NCBI GenBank assembly: GCA_017656425.1 | Contig: JACDNV010000018.1 | Coordinates: 1-39,126, forward strand | Length of the DNA: 39,126 nucleotides | Origin: Candidatus Neomarinimicrobiota bacterium | Lineage (GTDB): Bacteria > Fidelibacterota > UBA2242 > B5-G15 | Reading direction: 5' to 3' | Shown: positions 26,770 through 39,126 of the stretch, piece by piece | Layout of the letters: every line of letters starts with the position of its first letter | Position numbering within the stretch: position 1 is the stretch's first letter | Position numbers and translations under genes: made by a program | Notes under the pieces: generated by a model | The model's database searches: none | Told to the model about the DNA's origin: nothing | What the model saw: only the letters and a program-made list of their open reading frames with translations

Positions 26770-28674
26770 ATGTTACTTAAGATAAAGAATATTAAAGTTT
26801 TAAATAATATTTTTGCTAAATTGGTCAGTAATACGTTAATTCTTACCATTACCGTACTCAGCGGTTCCACTTCAGAAATATCTCCAAAAGCACATAACCC
26901 AATAATATGGGCTGATGTACCAGACCCATCGGTCATAACAGTAGATAGTTGCTATTATATGAGCAGTACAACAATGCATATGTGTCCAGGTGTTCCTATA
27001 ATGAAGTCGAAAGATCTCGTAAACTGGGAAATTGTAAACTACGTTTATGATACACTTTCAAACAGTGATGAAATGAATCTAGAAAATGGTAAAAATGCAT
27101 ATGGTAAGGGTTCATGGGCAAGCTGTCTAAGATATCATAATGGTTTCTTTTACTTAGTAACATTCTCTTACACAACCAATAAAACATATATCTTTAAAAC
27201 TGATGATATAGAAAATGGAGTTTGGGAACGTAGCATAATTAATCAGGTTTGCCATGATCCATCTTTACTATTCGATGATGATGGTAAAGTTTATCTAGTT
27301 TATGGAATCGATAATATAAAAGTACTAGAACTAACGGAGGATGTTACAGCAATTAAGCATGGTGGATTGAATAGGACCATAATAGAAAGTGCAAGTAAGA
27401 TTGCGGGAACTGAATTTTACGTTGCGGCAGAAGGTTCTCATATCCATAAAATAAGAGGTAAATATTATATATTTTTGATTTCATGGCCAAAGGGTGGAAT
27501 GAGAACGCAACTTGTATTTCGTTCAGAAAGAATTACGGGTCCATACGAAGGAAAAATTGCATTAAAATATGAAGGCATTGCCCAGGGAGGCTTAGTAGAA
27601 AGTATTGATGGAAAGTGGTATGCTCTTTTGTTCCAGGATCATGGCTCTGTTGGTAGAATTCCTTGTCTCGTTCCTGTCACTTGGGAAAATGGTTGGCCTG
27701 TATTTGGTATCAAAGGTAAAGTACCCACTGAGCTGGACATCCCAGTGAAAAATGATAGTATACCTAAAATTGTATCTTCTGATGATTTCGAATGGACGGA
27801 AAAGATGCCCCTTGTATGGCAATGGAATCACAATCCAGACAACCGTTATTGGTCAACCAAACAGCGCCCTGGTTACCTGAGACTAATTAATGGAAGAGTA
27901 GATAGAGATTTTACAGAAACTAGGAATACACTTACACAAAGAACTTTTGGTCCCAGGTGCTCTGGAGAAATCAAAATGGATACAAGGAATATGAAAGATG
28001 GTGATATAGCAGGTTTAGGATTATTGCAGGAGATTTATGGCTTTGTCGCAGTTAGAAGAGATGGCGAAATAAAAAATATTGTAATGGTTAATTCCAGCGC
28101 CGGGAGGCCTGAGATTGTCGAAAGTGTACTTTTAGAGCAAGACACAGTGTTTTTGAGGGTATCATGCGATTTAGAAAACAGGTCAGATAGTGCTTATTTT
28201 TATTATAGTTTGGACGGAGTAAAGTGGATTGAAATAGGAAATATTCTTAAAATGGAATATAGACTTTCACACTTTATGGGATATAAGTTTGCGTTGTTCA
28301 ATTATGCTACAAAAAGCACGGGTGGTTATGTGGATTTTGATTTTTTTCATATCGATGATTCGTTAACCAAGCTAAGCGAGGTAGAAGAGCAAGGTTATTA
28401 CATCCCGGATAGATTTAATTTGTATCCCAATTATCCAAATCCATTCAATACTAACACTGTGATTTGCTATCAATTGCCAGAGAAATCAGGGTTGAATATA
28501 AAGGTCACTGATATTTTGGGACAGGAGGTATGCACATTATTTGAAGGCATTAGAGAGCCCGGGATTTATGAGATTACATTAGATAGTCGTAACCTAACAA
28601 GCGGTGTATATTTTTTCCAGTTAAGAACAAACAATAACTTTGTTATAACGAGGAAATTCCTTGTATTGAAGTAA
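26770..28674 (+). CDS. GH43 (subfamily 12-like) hydrolase with T9SS sorting domain
   Basis: After an N-terminal hydrophobic signal (about residues 10-32), the GH43 domain starts NPIIWADVPDPSV with general base D52. The block YYMSSTTMHMCPGVPIMKSK is highly typical of GH43 subfamily 12 arabinofuranosidases/xylosidases. D163 (CHDPSLLFDD) and E221 (AAEGSHIHKI) complete the active site. Residues about 340-540 form the GH43 C2-type beta-sandwich (DDFEWTEKMPLVWQWNHNPD). Residues about 550-634 are the NYPNPFNTNTVICYQLP sorting domain. It probably removes arabinose or xylose branches outside the cell. A very strong AGGAGGGGG site precedes the ATG. The 193-nt gap before it holds nothing I can name. Confidence 0.92.
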   Translation: MLLKIKNIKVLNNIFAKLVSNTLILTITVLSGSTSEISPKAHNPIIWADVPDPSVITVDSCYYMSSTTMHMCPGVPIMKSKDLVNWEIVNYVYDTLSNSDEMNLENGKNAYGKGSWASCLRYHNGFFYLVTFSYTTNKTYIFKTDDIENGVWERSIINQVCHDPSLLFDDDGKVYLVYGIDNIKVLELTEDVTAIKHGGLNRTIIESASKIAGTEFYVAAEGSHIHKIRGKYYIFLISWPKGGMRTQLVFRSERITGPYEGKIALKYEGIAQGGLVESIDGKWYALLFQDHGSVGRIPCLVPVTWENGWPVFGIKGKVPTELDIPVKNDSIPKIVSSDDFEWTEKMPLVWQWNHNPDNRYWSTKQRPGYLRLINGRVDRDFTETRNTLTQRTFGPRCSGEIKMDTRNMKDGDIAGLGLLQEIYGFVAVRRDGEIKNIVMVNSSAGRPEIVESVLLEQDTVFLRVSCDLENRSDSAYFYYSLDGVKWIEIGNILKMEYRLSHFMGYKFALFNYATKSTGGYVDFDFFHIDDSLTKLSEVEEQGYYIPDRFNLYPNYPNPFNTNTVICYQLPEKSGLNIKVTDILGQEVCTLFEGIREPGIYEITLDSRNLTSGVYFFQLRTNNNFVITRKFLVLK

Positions 28675-30642
<1,968 letters not shown>

Positions 30643-30653
30643 AGGAGTATAAA

Positions 30654-32597
30654 ATGCTGGGAAGGTATTTCAATTTGTCAGTTGTAGTTTTATTGACTTT
30701 ACTCTCGAATAAGGATTTGTGCTCAAAAACTTATATAGTAAGGAGTCCAAATCAAAAGATATCAGTTTCATTCTGGCTTACTGAACAGGGGGAACCTGTA
30801 TATTCCGTCTCTCACTCTGGTACTCCGGTCCTTCGAGAATCAAGATTAGGACTAATCAGAAGTGATGAAGACTTTTCACGAAATCTATTTTTGGATTCAG
30901 TTTCAAATGAAATTATAGTTAAAGATAAATACACCCTTTTACACGGCAAGAAATCAACTTGCTATTATGAGGGCATAAAGAGAATATTCTATCTAAAAAG
31001 TAAGAATTTAAAGCCCATGGAAATTATTTTTCAGGTCTCAAATGATGGCGTGGCATTCAGATATCACTTCCCCGATAAAACTGAAGACAAAGTGAAAATT
31101 TATAAAGAAGTATCTTCATTTCATTTTGATACATCGGCAAAAGCATTTTTACAGCCCTGTCCAGATGCTCGTACCGGCTGGTGTTTTACCCAACCATCAT
31201 ATGAAGAATACTATCAAATTGAAATACCTGTTGGAACTCCAGCACCTTTTCAAGCAGGATGGGTAATGCCTGCGCTATTTAATTATGGAAAGTACTGGAT
31301 ATGTATCACAGAAACCGCGGTGGATACGAATTATTGTGGATCTCGTTTAAGTCAATTCTCTCCAGATGGGGAGTACTCTATTCAATTTCCTCAACCTCAA
31401 GAACGAAGAAATGACGAACCCTATTTACCAGAATCGCCTCTCACTTGGTATACACCATGGAGAATAGTTGCAGTTACGGATAATCTAGGTGACCTTGTAG
31501 AATCAACAATTGGGACTGATCTTGCTAGTCCCGCACAATATGATGTTTCTTCATGGTTAAAACCTGGTATTGCTTCATGGAGTTGGGTGATTCTGAAAGA
31601 TGATTCTACAATTTATAGAGTTCAAAAAAGATATATTGACTTTGCAGCATCAATGGGATGGAAATATTGCCTCATAGATGCATTCTGGGATAGGCAAATA
31701 GGATATGACAAAATAAAAGAACTTGCAAAATACGCAAAAAACAAGAATGTAAAAATTCTTTTATGGTACAACTCGGCTGGAGACTGGAATACCACAAACT
31801 TAACACCTCGTAATAAATTACTTACAAGAGAATCAAGAGTGAAAGAATTTCAAAAGTTAAAAGAGATGGGAGTAGCTGGTATAAAAGTTGATTTCTTCGG
31901 TGGAGACGGACAATCGATGATGAAGTATTATATTGATATACTAAAGGATGCTGCAAAATTTAATCTTGCGGTAAACTTTCACGGGTGCACCTATCCCAGA
32001 GGCTGGCACAGAACATATCCTAATTTGGTAAGTATGGAGGCGATAAAAGGCGAAGAATATGTGACATTCGATCAGTATTTTGCAGATAATCAACCATGGC
32101 ATTGCACGGTTATTCCTTTTACCCGAAATCTTTTCGATCCGATGGATTTTACGCCTGTGAATTTTTCAGGTATACCCAATATTAAACGTAGAACAACAAA
32201 AGGTTTTGAAATAGCCTTGTCGGTACTGTTCACATCTGGAATTCAACATATTGCGGAAACTCCCCGGGGAATGTCAGCTCAGAAAAACTTTATAAAAAAA
32301 TTCATGAGTACTTTACCCACAAGCTGGGACGATGTGAAATTTATTGATGGTTATCCAGGTAAGTTTGTTGTGCTGGCAAGAAGGAAAGGTGATATGTGGT
32401 ATATAGCAGGGATCAATGACGAAGAAAAAGAACGAACGATTGAATTAAAACTTCAATTTATCAACAAAAAGTCAAAGGGACTTTTGATTACTGATTCTAA
32501 AGATGGAAAATGGCTTGTGAAACGTCATATAGATTTGTCGAAATCACAAAAGATAAAAGTGGTTCCTTATGGTGGGTTTGTAATAAAAACGTTTTGA
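30654..32597 (+). CDS. GH97 family glycoside hydrolase
   Basis: GH97 enzymes are alpha-glucosidases or alpha-galactosidases of FCB bacteria. The N-terminal beta-super-sandwich starts VRSPNQKISVSFWL after a signal peptide. The catalytic barrel has KPGIASWSWV, GWKYCLIDAFWD, KILLWYNSAGDW and GVAGIKVDFFGGDGQ. Asp413 in the last motif sits where retaining members such as the Bacteroides alpha-galactosidase BtGal97b have their nucleophile, so a retaining mechanism is likely. SMEAIKGEE supplies later acidic residues. I start at 30654 because GGAG (30644-30647) is ideally spaced; an in-frame ATG at 30639 would overlap the preceding stop and lack a site. No sorting domain. Confidence 0.9.
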   Translation: MLGRYFNLSVVVLLTLLSNKDLCSKTYIVRSPNQKISVSFWLTEQGEPVYSVSHSGTPVLRESRLGLIRSDEDFSRNLFLDSVSNEIIVKDKYTLLHGKKSTCYYEGIKRIFYLKSKNLKPMEIIFQVSNDGVAFRYHFPDKTEDKVKIYKEVSSFHFDTSAKAFLQPCPDARTGWCFTQPSYEEYYQIEIPVGTPAPFQAGWVMPALFNYGKYWICITETAVDTNYCGSRLSQFSPDGEYSIQFPQPQERRNDEPYLPESPLTWYTPWRIVAVTDNLGDLVESTIGTDLASPAQYDVSSWLKPGIASWSWVILKDDSTIYRVQKRYIDFAASMGWKYCLIDAFWDRQIGYDKIKELAKYAKNKNVKILLWYNSAGDWNTTNLTPRNKLLTRESRVKEFQKLKEMGVAGIKVDFFGGDGQSMMKYYIDILKDAAKFNLAVNFHGCTYPRGWHRTYPNLVSMEAIKGEEYVTFDQYFADNQPWHCTVIPFTRNLFDPMDFTPVNFSGIPNIKRRTTKGFEIALSVLFTSGIQHIAETPRGMSAQKNFIKKFMSTLPTSWDDVKFIDGYPGKFVVLARRKGDMWYIAGINDEEKERTIELKLQFINKKSKGLLITDSKDGKWLVKRHIDLSKSQKIKVVPYGGFVIKTF

Positions 32598-33325: not shown

Positions 33326-33496
33326 AAAGAATATTGTAAGAAGTGTAAACCACAGAAGTGGTTGTTTGAAAGAGCAAAATAAGGTTTACATTTTTTGACA
33401 AGGATGAGGGAAAGATTTCCCAAAGTGCATGTAAAAAGACAGGTAATAAAAATGAGGTTCCATTTTGTAGTTTGAGGTACGGTTTTGCTACACATC

Positions 33497-33518
33497 TCCC
33501 GAATAGGGATTCTACGAA
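33497..33518 (-). repeat. 22-nt repeat unit copy 5 (inverted)
   Basis: The only copy on the minus strand (variant TTCGTAGAATC, loop TATTC read on that strand). Removing it rebuilds CTT TTA GAA and the highly conserved recombinase sequence FATHLLEAGTDL. This is the clearest evidence that the unit was inserted into a functional gene. Confidence 0.92.
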
Positions 33519-33660
33519 TTTTAGAAGCTGGAACAGATTTAAGTTATATTCAAGAACGTTTAGATCATACTCATATCAAAGCTACCGGGATTTATACTCA
33601 TGTCAGCAGAAAAAAATCTGGACAATATAATTAGTCCAATCGATACCATAAACATTAATA

Positions 33661-33682: not shown

Positions 33683-33746
33683 AAGAAGGCGGGAGGTGAA
33701 AATGTTTATAAAATTAAAAGATTTTGTTAGTTCGTCAATAGGGAGT

Positions 33747-33769
33747 ATATCTGCACTAAGTGCGGATAT
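33747..33769. repeat. Near-perfect 23-nt palindrome before the cassette array
   Basis: ATATCTGCACT and AGTGCGGATAT face each other around a central A, with 10 of 11 pairs Watson-Crick and one T-G. The left arm can pair instead with AGTGCGAATATA at 33801-33812, next to the GTTAGGC core. It lies between the recombinase tail and the first cassette, where an integron attI or recombinase operator would be expected. Function is inferred. Confidence 0.6.
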
Positions 33770-33817
33770 CATCCAAAAAAGGCATCATATCAGTACCAAG
33801 AGTGCGAATATAACAAC

Positions 33818-33824
33818 GTTAGGC
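33818..33824 (+). other. attI-like recombination core GTTAGGC
   Basis: A perfect GTTRRRY core, the integron crossover sequence, located 60 bp before the first cassette gene. No matching RYYYAAC partner lies within 150 bp upstream, which fits attI better than a full attC. If correct, cassette 1 begins at 33819. Confidence 0.5.
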
Positions 33825-33877
33825 GAAATAGATAAAATATATTAGTAGAGATTTAAAATAAAAAGGAGGGGTAAGTT

Positions 33878-34195
33878 ATGGCTTTTAAAGCATTATTTTT
33901 AGCGCATGCACCTGATGCAGACTATGAAAAACATAAAAGTATTATTGACACAGGAAAGTATAGACTTTTGACAGTTGTTGTGAAATCTCAAGACGAAGCA
34001 ATAAAAGTTTCAAAAAGTATCTATGAAAAGGAGAAAATAGATGCCATTATACTTTGTCCAGGCTTTACACATAGTGATGTAGCAGAGATATTTCAGGTAC
34101 TAAAAGGCAAAGTATCTGTCAACGTTGCTAGAGGAGATGGTCCCAGCAATAAAATTTCACAAGCTGTGATACAAAAAGAATTTTTCAATAAGTAG
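33878..34195 (+). CDS. Small DUF6506-like protein (cassette 1)
   Basis: A 105-residue soluble protein starting MAFKALFLAHAPDADYEKH, with VVVKSQDEAIKVSKSIYEKEKIDAIILCPGFTHSDVAEIFQVLKG. The pattern of a short alpha/beta fold with 'A-P-x-A-D-x-x-x-H' and a 'CxGF.H..V..I' core is what I associate with DUF6506, whose function is unknown. There are no membrane segments. AGGAGGGG is a very strong ribosome binding site, so the cassette carries its own translation start. It ends 28 nt before its attC site. Confidence 0.65.
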   Translation: MAFKALFLAHAPDADYEKHKSIIDTGKYRLLTVVVKSQDEAIKVSKSIYEKEKIDAIILCPGFTHSDVAEIFQVLKGKVSVNVARGDGPSNKISQAVIQKEFFNK

Positions 34196-34223
34196 TGTGA
34201 AAAGGTGATAATGTTACTACTTC

Positions 34224-34303
34224 GCCTAACAGCGGATAAAAGGGAAATCAAAGATTCCTCTAAATTGCCTTCGGCAACTTCTTTTATTCGCAATATGTTA
34301 TGC
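34224..34303 (+). other. attC site 1 (80 bp)
   Basis: R'' GCCTAAC (34224-34230) and R' GTTATGC (34297-34303) bracket the site. Inner arms GCGGATAAAAG and CTTTTATTCGC pair at 10 of 11 positions, with unequal spacers (1 and 5 nt) giving the unpaired bases expected in a folded attC. Inside are two mini-hairpins, GGAAATC/GATTCC and TTGCC-TTC-GGCAA. It is almost identical to site 2. Confidence 0.82.
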
Positions 34304-34335
34304 GCAATGCAAAAATATTTGATGGCGTAAGGATT

Positions 34336-35118
34336 ATGAAAATTGATGAACTGAATAAAAGGATAAAGGAATGTAAGAAATGCAGGTTATTTGAAACCAG
34401 AAAGAATGCTATCTGTGGCGAGGGAAATTTGAATGCTAAAATTATGTTAATTGCTCAGGCACCAGGAGAAAAAGAGGATAGAGAAGGAAAAATGTTTGTT
34501 GGTCCTTCAGGGAAAGTATTAGACGAATTACTAAAATCAGCAGGAATTAGCAGGCAGGCAATTTATATGACAAATTTAATTAAATGTATGCTTCCAAAAT
34601 ACAGAAGGCCCAAGCAGGATGAAATTATAGCCTGCAGTTATTACTTGAATGAAGAAATTAAATTAATAAATCTAAAGATATTGGTCCCCTTAGGTTATTA
34701 TGCCACCTATTACATTTTTCAAAAACATGGCATTTTGTCACCTTCAAAAAGAGAGTTTTCTTCAATTTATGGTAGACTTTTTTTAGCTGGAGATAAAAAG
34801 ATACTACCCCTACCTCATCCCGCAACTCTTCTTTATAATCCTGACTTTAAGCAAGGTTTAATAAAAAGTTACAAAAAATTGCAGGTGCTACTTAAGGATT
34901 GCAAATGGTATCTGGCGTGTCCAATGAAAAGATTTTATGAGGAAGGAAAGTTAGATAAGAAGTGGATAGAATTGTACTGTAAGGGAGATTGGAAAAGTTG
35001 TATTCGTTATCACATGGAAGAAAAAGGTAAGGTGCATCCAGATTGGATGCTTCCCGATGGAACCTTAGATGAAAGATTGCATAAGGAGGCAAGATATGAA
35101 AGTTACGATTATTTATGA
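34336..35118 (+). CDS. Family 4 uracil-DNA glycosylase with cysteine-containing C-terminal extension (cassette 2)
   Basis: This enzyme removes uracil from DNA. The UDG core (residues 1-185) has iron-sulfur ligands C13, C16, C84 and C100, motif QAPGEKEDREGKMFVGPSGK and HPA (161-163). Residues 190-260 form an extension (CPMKRFYEEGKLDKKWIELY, CKGDWKSCIRYHMEE, HPDWMLPDG) found in some archaeal and thermophile homologues, perhaps a second metal site. I prefer the ATG at 34336, giving MKIDELNKRIKECKKC. An upstream ATG at 34300 lies inside the attC core and would make translation depend on the cassette junction. It overlaps the next gene by 23 nt. Confidence 0.85.
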   Translation: MKIDELNKRIKECKKCRLFETRKNAICGEGNLNAKIMLIAQAPGEKEDREGKMFVGPSGKVLDELLKSAGISRQAIYMTNLIKCMLPKYRRPKQDEIIACSYYLNEEIKLINLKILVPLGYYATYYIFQKHGILSPSKREFSSIYGRLFLAGDKKILPLPHPATLLYNPDFKQGLIKSYKKLQVLLKDCKWYLACPMKRFYEEGKLDKKWIELYCKGDWKSCIRYHMEEKGKVHPDWMLPDGTLDERLHKEARYESYDYL

Positions 35119-35734
35119 TAATACTACTTTAAGAACCGAGCTTAAAGCTGACTGGGGTTTCTCAGCACTTACCCATGTTAAAGGAAAGAATATTCTTTTT
35201 GATGCAGGAGCAAATGGAGATATTTTACTTTCCAATATGAAAGAGCTTAAAATTAATCCAGAAAAGATCGAAGATATTTTCATTTCTCATCTTCACTGGG
35301 ATCATACAGGTGGTTTATCATCCTTTCTTCAACTGAATAATAAAGTGAAACTCTGGGCTCCTTCTCATTTTTACGAAGCAAAAAATGCAAGAGAAGTTAT
35401 TGAAGTGAAGAAACCCACAAAGCTTTATGAAGGAATTTACTCTACAGGTGAACTTGATGGAATAGAACAATCCCTCTGCATTGAGACAGAAAAAGGTATT
35501 GTAATTATAGCCGGATGCTCGCACCCAAGAATGGAGTATATTCTTAAAACAGCTTCTCAATTTGGTAAGGTTTATGGCATTATAGGAGGATTACACGGAA
35601 CAAGTCCTGAATCCTTAAAGAACTTAGATTTGATTTGCCCAACCCATTGCACTCAATATAAATCAGAGATAAGGTTCCTTTATCCCGAAAAATATATTGA
35701 GGGAGGAGCAGGGAAAATAATTGAGGTTGAGTAG
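35096..35734 (+). CDS. Metallo-beta-lactamase-fold hydrolase, cytosolic (cassette 2)
   Basis: A 212-residue MBL-fold protein with the zinc motif SHLHWDHTGG (H65, H67, D69, H70), AGCSHP and GGLHG. The start VTIIYDN and overall pattern resemble the dihydropterin-ribofuranosyl-aminobenzene-phosphate synthase-like subgroup (MJ0301 type), whose members are mostly of unknown activity. The ATG at 35096 follows AAGGAGG (35083-35089) and lies inside the end of the UDG gene; a longer reading from 35069 would ignore that site. A homologous gene follows directly. Confidence 0.88.
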   Translation: MKVTIIYDNTTLRTELKADWGFSALTHVKGKNILFDAGANGDILLSNMKELKINPEKIEDIFISHLHWDHTGGLSSFLQLNNKVKLWAPSHFYEAKNAREVIEVKKPTKLYEGIYSTGELDGIEQSLCIETEKGIVIIAGCSHPRMEYILKTASQFGKVYGIIGGLHGTSPESLKNLDLICPTHCTQYKSEIRFLYPEKYIEGGAGKIIEVE

Positions 35735-35735
35735 A

Positions 35736-36521
35736 ATGAATCTCAAGATCTTAACTTTAATCGGAACCTTAATTTTGGCAGGAGGAGGGATTTGGTTCCC
35801 AGCTCTGGCTGAAAAAGAAAAACCAGAAATAACTTTAATCTCTGTCTATGACAACTGCCAAGTAGACCCAGAACTTAAAACTACCTGGGGCTTTGCCACC
35901 ATAATAAAAACTCCTCAGGAGCTAATACTTTTTGATACCGGAGGAAACTCAGAAATTTTGCTTTTCAATATGAAAAAATTAGGTATCGATCCTTCCTCAA
36001 TCAAAAAAGTAGTTATTTCTCATATCCATGCTGATCATTTAGGAGGATTAGAAGGTTTTTTAGAGAGAAACAGTAATGTTACAGTTTTCATTCCCCATTC
36101 CTTTCCAAAATCCGTTAAGAATATGATAATCCAAAAGAAAGCCAAATTTGTAGAAATTTCAGCTCCAAGAAAAATTTCTGCTTCTATTTACACAACTGGA
36201 GAGCTTTATGGACCTCCAGAAGAGCAATCCTTAATTATTGATTCAAAGAAGGGATTAGTGGTTATTACAGGCTGTGCTCATCCAGGAATTGTAAATATTA
36301 TAAAGAGAGCCAAAAAATTAATGAAAGAAGATAAGGTATACTTAGTTTTAGGAGGGTTTCACCGTCCTCCTACATCTTGCATTAAAGAATTTAAAGAATT
36401 GGGAGTAGAAAAGGTTGCACCATCTCATTGCACAGGTGATTTGGTCAGAGAAACTTTTAGAAAGGAATATAAGGAAAATTTTATTGAGCACGGAGTAGGA
36501 AAGGTAATTGAAATCAAATAA
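35736..36521 (+). CDS. Metallo-beta-lactamase-fold hydrolase, exported paralogue (cassette 2)
   Basis: Clearly homologous to the preceding protein (VYDN, TTWGFAT, LFDTGGN, SHIHADHLGG with H96, H98, D100, H101, then TGCAHPG and GGFH). It adds a cleavable signal peptide (MNLKILTLIGTLILAGGG...FPALA). The pair thus provides a cytosolic and a periplasmic version of the same enzyme type, probably after tandem duplication. The ATG at 35736 follows GAGG; a TTG at 35721 would add five residues. The substrate is unknown, and a beta-lactamase function is not implied. Confidence 0.87.
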   Translation: MNLKILTLIGTLILAGGGIWFPALAEKEKPEITLISVYDNCQVDPELKTTWGFATIIKTPQELILFDTGGNSEILLFNMKKLGIDPSSIKKVVISHIHADHLGGLEGFLERNSNVTVFIPHSFPKSVKNMIIQKKAKFVEISAPRKISASIYTTGELYGPPEEQSLIIDSKKGLVVITGCAHPGIVNIIKRAKKLMKEDKVYLVLGGFHRPPTSCIKEFKELGVEKVAPSHCTGDLVRETFRKEYKENFIEHGVGKVIEIK

Positions 36522-36544
36522 AAAGTATCCTCAATTTGCACATC

Positions 36545-36624
36545 ATCTAACAGCGGATAAAAGGGAAATCAAAGATTCCTCTAAATTGCCTCCGGCAACT
36601 TCTTATATTTGCAATATGTTAGGT
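36545..36624 (+). other. attC site 2 (80 bp)
   Basis: R'' ATCTAAC (36545-36551) and R' GTTAGGT (36618-36624) both fit RYYYAAC/GTTRRRY exactly. The interior differs from site 1 at only about three positions over 66 bases, including the TTGCC-TCC-GGCAA mini-hairpin. Near-identical attC sites on unrelated cassettes are typical of resident chromosomal integrons. Confidence 0.85.
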
Positions 36625-36652
36625 ATCATACCAATATTCTAAGGAGAACATT

Positions 36653-37540
36653 ATGAAAGCAATTAAAACAGGTGATGGAGTTGCAGCGGCAAGAGCAATG
36701 ATGATGTTATATCCTAAAGAAAAGCGGCTTTTTGAAGATCCCTATTCTGAAAAATTATTACCACCAGTTTATAAATTTTATATCTGGCTTATGCGAAATC
36801 CTAAAATACGCGATTCGTTTATAATGAAAAAAGAAAAAAGTATCCCGGGAGCTATGGGATGGTTTTTTTGTCGAGAGCGTTACATAGATGATGTATTAAG
36901 AAAGACTCTTGAAAAAAATGAATTTGAGACAGTTGTAAATTTGGGTGCTGGAATGGATTGCCGTGCATATTATATCCCGGAAATAGAAAAACTACTCTAC
37001 TTTGAAGTTGATCATCCGAAAGTGATAAAAAAGAAAATGAAAAAAATGAAAAAAATATTAGGAAAGCTTCCAGACAATGTTGTTTATGTTCCCATTGATT
37101 TTCAGAAGCAAAGTCTTGATCTTAAATTAAAAAATGCAGGATATAATTTAACTTTTAAGACTCTTTTTATCTGGGAAGCTGTTACTCAATATATCCCCAA
37201 AGAAGCTATTGATAATACATTAAAATATATAGGACAAGCTGCACCCGGAAGTAAACTTGTATTTAGTTATGTTATTAAGAGTTTTATTGATGGTAAATAC
37301 TCCAATGATGGTATAAAAAGACTCGCTAAACAATTTCTTAAAAAAAGTAATCCTATCTTTATATCTGGTTTCAATCCTGCAGAGATGAAAGATTATCTTT
37401 CCAAATACTCACTTACTCTTATTGAAGATATTGATTCCGTGGAGATGCAGAAACGCTATTCAAATTTAGTTGACCTTGATTTACTTAAAACGATAAAAGA
37501 ATTTGATATTGAGCGCTTTGTCCTTGCGGAGGTAAAATGA
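36653..37540 (+). CDS. LCM-type SAM-dependent methyltransferase (cassette 3)
   Basis: A 295-residue class I methyltransferase of the leucine carboxyl methyltransferase/TIGR00027 family. It has ARAMMMLYPKEKRLFEDPYSE near the N-terminus, the SAM motif VVNLGAGMDCRAYYI, FEVDHPKVIKKK (acidic residue after beta-2) and LFIWEAVTQYI. Known relatives methylate carboxyl or hydroxyl groups of small molecules, including polyketides; the substrate is unknown here. AAGGAG gives a good ribosome binding site 29 nt after the attC 2 crossover. Confidence 0.87.
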   Translation: MKAIKTGDGVAAARAMMMLYPKEKRLFEDPYSEKLLPPVYKFYIWLMRNPKIRDSFIMKKEKSIPGAMGWFFCRERYIDDVLRKTLEKNEFETVVNLGAGMDCRAYYIPEIEKLLYFEVDHPKVIKKKMKKMKKILGKLPDNVVYVPIDFQKQSLDLKLKNAGYNLTFKTLFIWEAVTQYIPKEAIDNTLKYIGQAAPGSKLVFSYVIKSFIDGKYSNDGIKRLAKQFLKKSNPIFISGFNPAEMKDYLSKYSLTLIEDIDSVEMQKRYSNLVDLDLLKTIKEFDIERFVLAEVK

Positions 37541-37595
37541 TAAAATATAGAAAGAAGGTGCTTAAATATTTCAATTAAATATAAATGTGCACGGC

Positions 37596-37683
37596 GCCTA
37601 ACAGCGAGTACCCGGCTCCGATACGCTACGCCCAAATTGGCTCCCGTTAGTCGCCAACTTTGGGTACTCGCAAAACGTTAAGT
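37596..37683 (+). other. attC site 3 (88 bp)
   Basis: R'' GCCTAAC (37596-37602) and R' GTTAAGT (37677-37683) fit the consensus. GCGAGTACCC and GGGTACTCGC form a perfect 10-bp inverted repeat just inside, with a larger irregular loop. The interior is unrelated to sites 1 and 2, so the array mixes attC lineages. Confidence 0.85.
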
Positions 37684-37734
37684 GAAATCGTGGACTTCGG
37701 GTGCATCTAACATGTGCATAAAAATCGTGTGATT

Positions 37735-38880
37735 ATGATGAAAAATCAGGATAAATCAGATAAGTGGCAAGATTTTAGATTTAATTTGGAAGAAATATCT
37801 GGTGCAGTTGGAGATTATGGAACGTTAATCCCTATTGTCCTTGGCGTGGCTATAATTTCAAATGCCAATTTAGGACACATTCTACTGTTTTTCAGCATAT
37901 GGTATATTATCACAGGTCTATATTACAAAATGCCTGTTCCTGTAGAACCAATGAAGGCTATTGGGGTTGTAGTTATTGAAGGAGGTTTAAGCTGTGGCGA
38001 GATTGCAGCTTCTGGAATAATCTTAGGGGCTCTTTTTTTAGTTTTGGGATTTTGTAAAGGAATGAAATTCATTCAGGAAAAAGTTCCCAATAGTGTTATT
38101 AGAGGCATACAATTAGGTTTAGCATTACTTTTGATTAAAACATCAATTAATTTTATTGTTGGAGATTATATTTTAGCCATTGTTTGTATAATTATTGTTA
38201 TTTTATTTTTAATAGTTAATAAATTTGGCAAAATTCCAGACCTTTCTGCAATATTTATTCTATTAATCGGCATAATTGTTGGTTTTTCTAAATTTGGGAT
38301 TCCTCCTATTAGCATTATATCATTACCAAATATCATTATCCCAACAGTCCATGATTTCCTAAAAGGTGCTTGGTTATTAGCTATTCCTCAGGCACCGTTG
38401 ACTATTACCAACGCAATACTTGCCACCTCATTGTTAATGCAAGATCTTGTTCGCAGAGATGTTGACCCGGATAAATTATCAAAGAGTATCGGTCTAATGA
38501 ATCTAACATCTGCTCCTTTTGGAGGTTTTCCTATGTGTCATGGTGCTGGCGGTCTTGCAGCACAATACAGATTTGGAGCAAGAACTGGAGGGTCAAATAT
38601 TATTAGTGGTTTGATATTATTACCAATTGCTCTGTTTTTTGCCAGTCCAGAATTTGTCGCAATTATTCCTTTTGGTGTTTTTGGAGCATTATTAGTTTTT
38701 GTTGCAATTGAATTAGGAAAACATGGTTTGAAAACAGATTCTTATATTGTTACGGGCATCATATCAATATTAGCATTAGTAACTAATATTACAATTGCTT
38801 ATATTTTTGGGATGATGCTGGCCTATGTACTAACAAAGATACGAAAGCGTCCACAAAGGTCTAATAATGTTAGGGGATGA
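37735..38880 (+). CDS. MOT1-type molybdate/sulfate transporter (cassette 4)
   Basis: About ten membrane segments in 381 residues. Family motifs are SGAVGDYGTLIPIVLG, MPVPVEPMKAIGVV and CHGAGGLAAQYRFGARTGG, the signature blocks of the MOT1 group within the SulP/MFS_MOT1 superfamily. Such proteins import molybdate or sulfate. Start choice is uncertain: ATG at 37735 or 37738, or GTG at 37714, and none has a clear ribosome binding site. The last codons reach into the repeat-rich end of the cassette. Confidence 0.87.
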   Translation: MMKNQDKSDKWQDFRFNLEEISGAVGDYGTLIPIVLGVAIISNANLGHILLFFSIWYIITGLYYKMPVPVEPMKAIGVVVIEGGLSCGEIAASGIILGALFLVLGFCKGMKFIQEKVPNSVIRGIQLGLALLLIKTSINFIVGDYILAIVCIIIVILFLIVNKFGKIPDLSAIFILLIGIIVGFSKFGIPPISIISLPNIIIPTVHDFLKGAWLLAIPQAPLTITNAILATSLLMQDLVRRDVDPDKLSKSIGLMNLTSAPFGGFPMCHGAGGLAAQYRFGARTGGSNIISGLILLPIALFFASPEFVAIIPFGVFGALLVFVAIELGKHGLKTDSYIVTGIISILALVTNITIAYIFGMMLAYVLTKIRKRPQRSNNVRG

Positions 38881-38926
38881 GATAGATATTAGTAAAATGA
38901 CTAATACTGACCTGGGGGAGATAAGC

Positions 38927-39063
38927 ACCTTACGTTCACGACTCTCGCCAACTTCGTTGGCTCGGTGCTATCGCACTCGGACAACAGGTGGATATGTAGC
39001 TCGCTCACGCTTGCCCAAATCCCGACTATCGTCGGGACTTCACATATCCCCGGAACGTTATCT
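38927..39063 (+). other. Probable attC site 4 (about 137 bp, irregular)
   Basis: A looser site: ACCTTAC (one mismatch to RYYYAAC) and GTTATCT bracket it. TTACGTTC pairs with GAACGTTA, and GGATATGT pairs with ACATATCC. Inside are compact hairpins GCCAAC-TTC-GTTGGC, GTGC-TATC-GCAC and CCCGAC-TATC-GTCGGG. Its place between two genes at the expected spacing supports attC, but both core sequences are imperfect. Confidence 0.5.
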
Positions 39064-39097
39064 GCAATTCCAAAAAAAATAAAATGGAGATGAGAAG

Positions 39098-39126
39098 ATG
39101 AGCATTGTTGAAATTATCTTAATAAT
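39098..39126 (+). CDS. Start of a fifth cassette gene (truncated by window edge)
   Basis: ATG at 39098 with GGAG (39086-39089) at good spacing opens the frame MSIVEIILI, which runs off the end. It begins 35 nt after the attC 4 core, like the other cassette genes. The product cannot be predicted; the hydrophobic start hints at a membrane protein. Confidence 0.5.

Follow-up and report, generated by a model that had tools for sequence, protein, structure and literature searches.

Integrons, the integrons of the Fibrobacteres-Chlorobi-Bacteroidetes (FCB) group, clusters of attC sites lacking integron integrases (CALINs) and the recombinase-associated acquired interbacterial defence (rAID) arrays are all known systems. 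The integron integrase, IntI, carries a specific insertion, or patch, that a passage of PMC8138268, citing MacDonald 2006, describes as essential for integron function. A CALIN is defined by two or more attC sites within 4 kb of each other and no integron integrase (PMC9668308, PMC9024848), and current tools separate integrons from CALINs by recognising IntI. Among FCB bacteria, integrons have been reported from Chlorobi, Ignavibacteriae and Salinibacter (PMC9024848). The biogenesis of rAID arrays was described in 2025 as still to be defined (PMC12247911). Here we describe an array of gene cassettes at the end of a 39,126-bp stretch of DNA from a Candidatus Neomarinimicrobiota bacterium. This stretch, the window, is an entire contig (C18), and the contig end truncates the array; the surrounding genome has 2.80 Mb in 50 contigs and is 99.66% complete.

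The window probably holds a decaying cassette array of the integron type, headed by a recombinase that lacks the patch and is not a canonical IntI. This reading rests on the attC sites, on a recombinase remnant that belongs to a patch-less clade, called type-2 here for convenience, and on the cassette arrays found behind intact relatives of that recombinase.

The attC sites and their cassettes

Four attC-type sites sit between unrelated genes of the same strand, with ends of the R''/R' type (RYYYAAC...GTTRRRY). Such folded sites had been noticed in a reading of the sequence alone; they are confirmed here, and their exact limits are set. A generic attC scan picks up three of the four within the final 5.5 kb, where shuffled sequence gives 0.22 matches per shuffle. 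A covariance model, R2, was built from four sites outside the window, three on contig C19 of the same genome and one from Klebsiella, chosen through their likeness to the window sites. The z-scores below are for single-strand DNA folds of the attC bottom strand.

34224-34303, + strand: attC 1; R2 57.0 bits, E 6e-12; bottom-strand fold z -3.8
36545-36624, + strand: attC 2; R2 48.7 bits; bottom-strand fold z -1.7
37596-37683, + strand: attC 3; R2 62.9 bits; bottom-strand fold z -2.6
38979-39063, + strand: attC 4; R2 26.8 bits, E 2e-4; bottom-strand fold z -4.1

Each site consists of an R'' ending in AAC, a 1-base spacer, a stem of 8-11 bp, a head, the second stem arm, a 5-base spacer and an R' beginning with GTTA. 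The head of sites of this window type contains the motif CYYAAATT-hairpin-(A)ACTT. Sites 1 and 2, both 80 bases long, had been called almost identical, and their identity is indeed 93% over 82 nt. Over the whole window, R2 finds exactly these four sites and no others (E 2e-13 to 2e-4). A model built from five clinical attC sites, R1, recognises none of them (about 9 bits, E about 5), which is explained by spacers unlike those of the clinical type; R1 did detect arrays in named Proteobacteria and Acidobacteria. The proposal that an attC covariance model would score the sites along the contig thus holds for a model of their own type, but not for one of the clinical type.

An alignment of 44 sites was made with the covariance model, since MAFFT mis-registers attC sites. 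It shows compensatory change in 10 of the 11 inner-stem pairs, and 160 double-change cells against 61.7 +/- 7.3 in shuffled data. In this alignment, which was itself fitted to the structure, 87.4% of the cells are paired, compared with 28-42% after a shift of the partner by 1 to 3 columns.

A blind blastn search against plasmids returned a single record, Klebsiella NZ_CP044036.1 (7997-8084), that matches attC 3 at 78.7% over 89 nt. In that record, the matching attC belongs to a class 1 integron, where it stands behind intI1 and immediately before ere(B); this suggests that a source of this kind supplied the cassette.

Folded, intergenic and partly near-identical sites could also be transcription terminators, or members of a dispersed palindromic repeat family, and not recombination sites at all. 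We consider this extremely improbable. Terminators or palindromes would hardly share fixed R''/R' ends, a one-sided spacer and a constant geometry despite differing stem sequences; the orientation of the sites follows the genes, the start and end words match in relatives, and the type occurs in a class 1 integron. Neither are the sites scattered: wide occurrence away from cassettes would have spoken for a repeat family, and R2 applied to the 2.8-Mb genome finds 21 places only, clustered on contigs C1, C6, C8, C18, C19 and C20.

A cassette whose start word matches its own attC bears the mark of circular cassettes. In the list, this match is scored over seven bases.

33819..34297, + strand: cassette 1; DUF6506 protein at 33878-34195; start word GTTAGGC and its own R'' GCCTAAC are exact reverse complements (7/7)
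34298..36618, + strand: cassette unit 2; uracil-DNA glycosylase at 34300-35118, MBL-fold proteins at 35069-35734 and 35721-36521; start/end words 4/7
36619..37677, + strand: cassette 3; LCM-family methyltransferase at 36653-37540; start/end words 6/7
37678..39057, + strand: cassette 4; MOT1-type molybdate transporter at 37714-38880; start/end words 3/7
39058..39126, + strand: first part of a fifth cassette, truncated where the contig ends

From these matches (7/7, 4/7, 6/7 and 3/7), the array appears worn or fused. With a match of 4/7 only, unit 2 is probably a fused or decayed unit. The cargo read earlier from the sequence (the glycosylase, the paired MBL proteins, the methyltransferase and the transporter) is recovered, and the DUF6506 protein is added to it. 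The glycosylase cassette was sought in viral contigs, with no match there.

The recombinase remnant and the patch-less clade

The array is directly preceded by the remains of a tyrosine recombinase gene, in the same direction as the cassettes, and by a stretch resembling an attI site.

33404..33640, + strand: tyrosine recombinase remnant of the type-2 clade, C-terminal part (...SLRYGFATHL / LEAGTDLSYIQERLDHTHIKATGIYTHVSRKK / NIISPIDTI), with frameshifts and stops
33496..33516, - strand: copy of a repeat of about 21 bp inside the remnant; an insertion of about 22 nt that shifts the frame of the remnant
33735..33820, + strand: attI-like region, ending in the junction G^TTAGGC; it aligns with a conserved region downstream of type-2 genes

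The remnant scores 49.8 bits with the profile of type-2 recombinases and 22.0 bits with that of IntI; a first impression, drawn from TIGR02249, that it was an IntI was dropped after this comparison. Its closest relatives are patch-less recombinases of 280-434 amino acids, at 54-65% identity. Every IntI aligned has some 40 residues between the catalytic boxes (LPxALxxKYPxA...W.W..VFP...DPRSG..RRHH) that are absent from these relatives; the remnant itself does not cover the stretch where that insertion would sit. Type-2 proteins reach 247-250 bits with NF040815 (NCBIfam), above its cut-off of 220, and 218-238 bits with TIGR02249, below its cut-off of 265. In a tree of 55 proteins, IntI forms a single clade (100/100, stem 1.61) that excludes the patch-less proteins; these make up two well-supported groups whose joining the tree does not resolve. 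A search of phages returned no type-2 recombinase.

There is no IntI on the window contig. The genome search for intI that had been proposed, made with TIGR02249 over the 99.66%-complete genome, yields no intact gene: it returns remnants and two XerC/D-like genes whose kind gives matches in control genomes too. The sequence-only reading of the locus as an integron thus stands insofar as attC sites with a conserved fold separate co-oriented genes in a cassette array of the integron type; it does not stand for a standard chromosomal integron, as an IntI-family integrase with its insertion is missing and the remnant is type-2. That reading had also held that an array with this cargo would be notable in an FCB-type host. 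The host does appear to be of that type, a Por_Secre_tail sorting domain being present in the window, but FCB integrons are already published (PMC9024848), and the notable part is the recombinase instead.

The first junction of the array, GTTAGGC, lies at 33818. Upstream of it, the attI region aligns, by eye and with MAFFT, to the stretch found downstream of type-2 genes. The gene itself is disrupted by stops and by the repeat copy listed above. This repeat (TCCGTAGGATCCCTAATCGGGA) has six copies in the window between 33085 and 33683, one of them inverted within the remnant, and at least 30 copies genome-wide; it clusters just before the array. It acts like a tiny mobile palindrome.

Window-type attC clusters and remnants of both kinds of recombinase occur elsewhere in the genome, on C1, C6, C8, C19 and C20, so that the genome holds several worn arrays. 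On C8, a type-2 remnant (61.7 bits with the type-2 profile, 36.3 with IntI) is followed by an attI-like match (E 0.03), and then by four attC sites in the same direction.

The left part of the window carries housekeeping and carbohydrate-degradation genes. At 26770-32597, consecutive genes for a GH43, an esterase and a GH97, the first with the Por_Secre_tail domain, are likely a polysaccharide-degradation cluster. An Rfam scan of the window gave no match.

Arrays behind intact type-2 genes

A strong type-2 match is present in 35 of the 245 genomes of the phylum; some fall in a more distant group, and the close group comprises 20-odd genomes. Downstream of most close type-2 genes, about 70-90 bp are conserved; they include two dif-like repeats and end in ACGTT or AGTT. 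Several contigs stop within a few bases of the end of this attI-like stretch, as expected if the DNA downstream varies; where the sequence runs on, cassettes are usually present. Distant patch-less genes (for example those of genomes G107, G122 and G146) were not counted as array heads: they lie in apparently fixed housekeeping neighbourhoods with no arrays, and form a clade of their own.

The clearest chain is that of genome G008, which reads GTTATGC at the attI, then GCATAAC...GTTGGGC, GCCCAAC...GTTGTGC, GCACAAC...GTTGTGT and ACACAAC...GTTAGCG: four consecutive exact matches. Among the 12 type-2 loci with more than 1 kb downstream, 8 have at least one exact word match, compared with 60 of 1441 random GTT starts (binomial P about 4e-9, or 2e-5 under a conservative background). 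The order of type-2 gene, attI and attC cassettes, all in one direction, is found in G008, G014, G019, G044, G057 and a metagenome-assembled genome (MAG) of Nitrospinae; in the window, the gene is broken and the attI match weak. In G014 and G019, the sites behind the intact gene are of the window type, the first word in G019 showing one mismatch and the second match being exact. The Nitrospinae MAG, RIFCSPLOWO2_12_FULL_45_22 (locus L303), has an intact type-2 gene, an attI and three window-type attC sites, with words matching at 7/7, 6/7 and 7/7; it also encodes a canonical IntI (L099).

It would be natural to conjecture that the window is an ordinary CALIN, whose cassettes were inserted and shuffled by a canonical IntI, now lost, and that the type-2 remnant is an unrelated neighbour. 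Such a role for canonical IntI as the sole mover is the main rival: this genome and its relatives possess IntI or once did, and presence per genome does not separate the two recombinases. The remnants on C19 and C20 of the same genome are canonical IntI (75.9 bits with IntI against 13.0 with type-2, and 73.5 against 44.1); full-length IntI occurs in 8 relatives of the same order, one of which, G015, has canonical attC sites behind it; and the window-type attC of the Klebsiella class 1 integron, which is run by IntI1, indicates that IntI probably can use this type. From genome to genome, the presence and absence of window-type attC sites tracks neither recombinase cleanly. All of this weighs against a patch-less mover of the cassettes, and so do several weaknesses in our own evidence: the hold-out behind R2 is not fully blind, given how its training sites were chosen; a hold-out attI profile finds 33759-33820 in the window, with its exact end at GTT, at a weak score (4.6 bits, E 9); cassettes 2 and 4 have no clean match between start and end words; and 4 of the 12 type-2 loci have no exact match.

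Nevertheless, we judge the ordinary CALIN unlikely. A type-2 remnant stands directly before this array, and likewise on C8; intact type-2 genes head window-type attC sites in three other genomes, one of them the Nitrospinae MAG; and the 17 loci of the phylum with an intact IntI show no significant window-type attC beside it, most of them having little sequence behind the gene.

Each cassette consists of one or a few genes and a folded attC. Assuming that the array was indeed headed by the type-2 recombinase, cassettes would have been inserted successively at the G^TT of an attI lying beside a recombinase gene of the same direction. This recombinase belongs to a clade of its own among the XerC/D-like tyrosine recombinases, one that has no IntI patch, and like IntI it would most likely have recombined attI with circular cassettes through their folded bottom strand; repeated insertion at attI would then produce a same-direction array. 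From adjacency and junction signatures, we infer that the type-2 recombinase itself performs the recombination, and that it would recognise attC without the patch. With its gene now broken, the cassettes would be mobile only via another integrase. The window-type attC of the class 1 integron suggests that IntI systems probably draw on the same cassettes.

Related arrays on plasmids and comparison with known systems

A tblastn search against plasmids finds the clade in Bacteroides, Parabacteroides, Phocaeicola, Chryseobacterium, Persicobacter and, truncated beside tet(X3), in Acinetobacter. On plasmids of Bacteroides ovatus (L308, 6828-12804) and Parabacteroides distasonis (L310, 7828-12960), it heads arrays of co-oriented small genes, many of them immunity genes. 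The 8-base start word of these cassettes is the exact reverse complement of their own 3' end word in 15 of 16 cases, with 7/8 in the remaining one; mismatched pairings of starts and ends are exact in 2 of 120. This layout is the rAID arrangement, with the features listed in PMC12247911; Ross et al. 2019 is reportedly the first paper on rAID. Genes in rAID arrays thus bear, at their junctions, the mark of circular cassettes. On a plasmid of Chryseobacterium sp. SNU WT5 (L305, 7831-14828), a type-2 gene precedes co-oriented genes and, at GTTGGGA, a long folded repeat; this may be another form of array.

In Acinetobacter baylyi pJAT2044 (L309, 3632-3822), the 'xerD' that precedes tet(X3) is a patch-less recombinase in truncated form, and between the two lies an attI-like stretch ending in GTTATGT, hinting that tet(X3) once sat at such an attI. 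Since no attC matching GTTATGT is left downstream of tet(X3), this cassette origin is a lead only. The passage of PMC7494873 that gives the arrangement xerD-tet(X3)-res-orf1-ISVsa3 offers no reading of the integron type.

What is new here is evidence that attC-type arrays stand behind patch-less recombinases and, as measured against PMC12247911, that the junction signature extends to rAID arrays. We lean towards a broader proposal, with less assurance than for the window itself: a second integron lineage of patch-less tyrosine recombinases and folded attC-type sites, which would span this phylum, Nitrospinota and Bacteroidota, would have built the rAID arrays, may have brought tet(X3) into Acinetobacter, would exchange cassettes with IntI integrons and would explain part of the unexplained CALINs. 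If so, the rule that the insertion is essential needs revision, some CALINs gain their missing integrase, and the recognition of attC without the patch becomes a mechanistic question. The assembly of rAID immunity arrays in gut bacteria would likewise gain a testable answer, and the xerD-tet(X3) resistance unit a lead.

The xerD-tet(X3) unit of Acinetobacter plasmids resembles the window in that its 'xerD' is a truncated type-2 relative, with an attI-like stretch ending in GTTATGT between it and tet(X3); in that unit, however, no matching attC follows tet(X3), and ISVsa3 moves the whole. With the rAID arrays of gut Bacteroidales it shares the recombinase clade, the same-direction array, attC-like intergenic motifs and, in part of its cassettes, the match of start and end words, and it displays the features of PMC12247911 that are a tyrosine recombinase, here broken, co-oriented short genes and conserved intergenic motifs. 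Unlike the window, with its G^TTR junction, rAID arrays have the junction CA^TTA and sites of about 60 nt, and their cargo is orphan immunity genes of the type VI secretion system, whereas that of the window is DUF6506, uracil-DNA glycosylase, MBL-fold, LCM and MOT1.

The canonical integron has, like the window, folded attC sites with R''/R' ends, a G^TTRRRY junction, same-strand cassettes and a recombinase beside the insertion point, and relatives of the same order carry genuine IntI integrons. The window differs in its type-2 recombinase, without the IntI insertion and outside the IntI clade, in attC sites with a 1/5-nt spacer and a two-hairpin head, and in having recombinase and cassettes in one direction. 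By current definitions it is a CALIN, with four sites, a largest gap of 2.24 kb and no IntI on the contig; yet it has a recombinase remnant, of a family that CALIN tools do not count as integrase.

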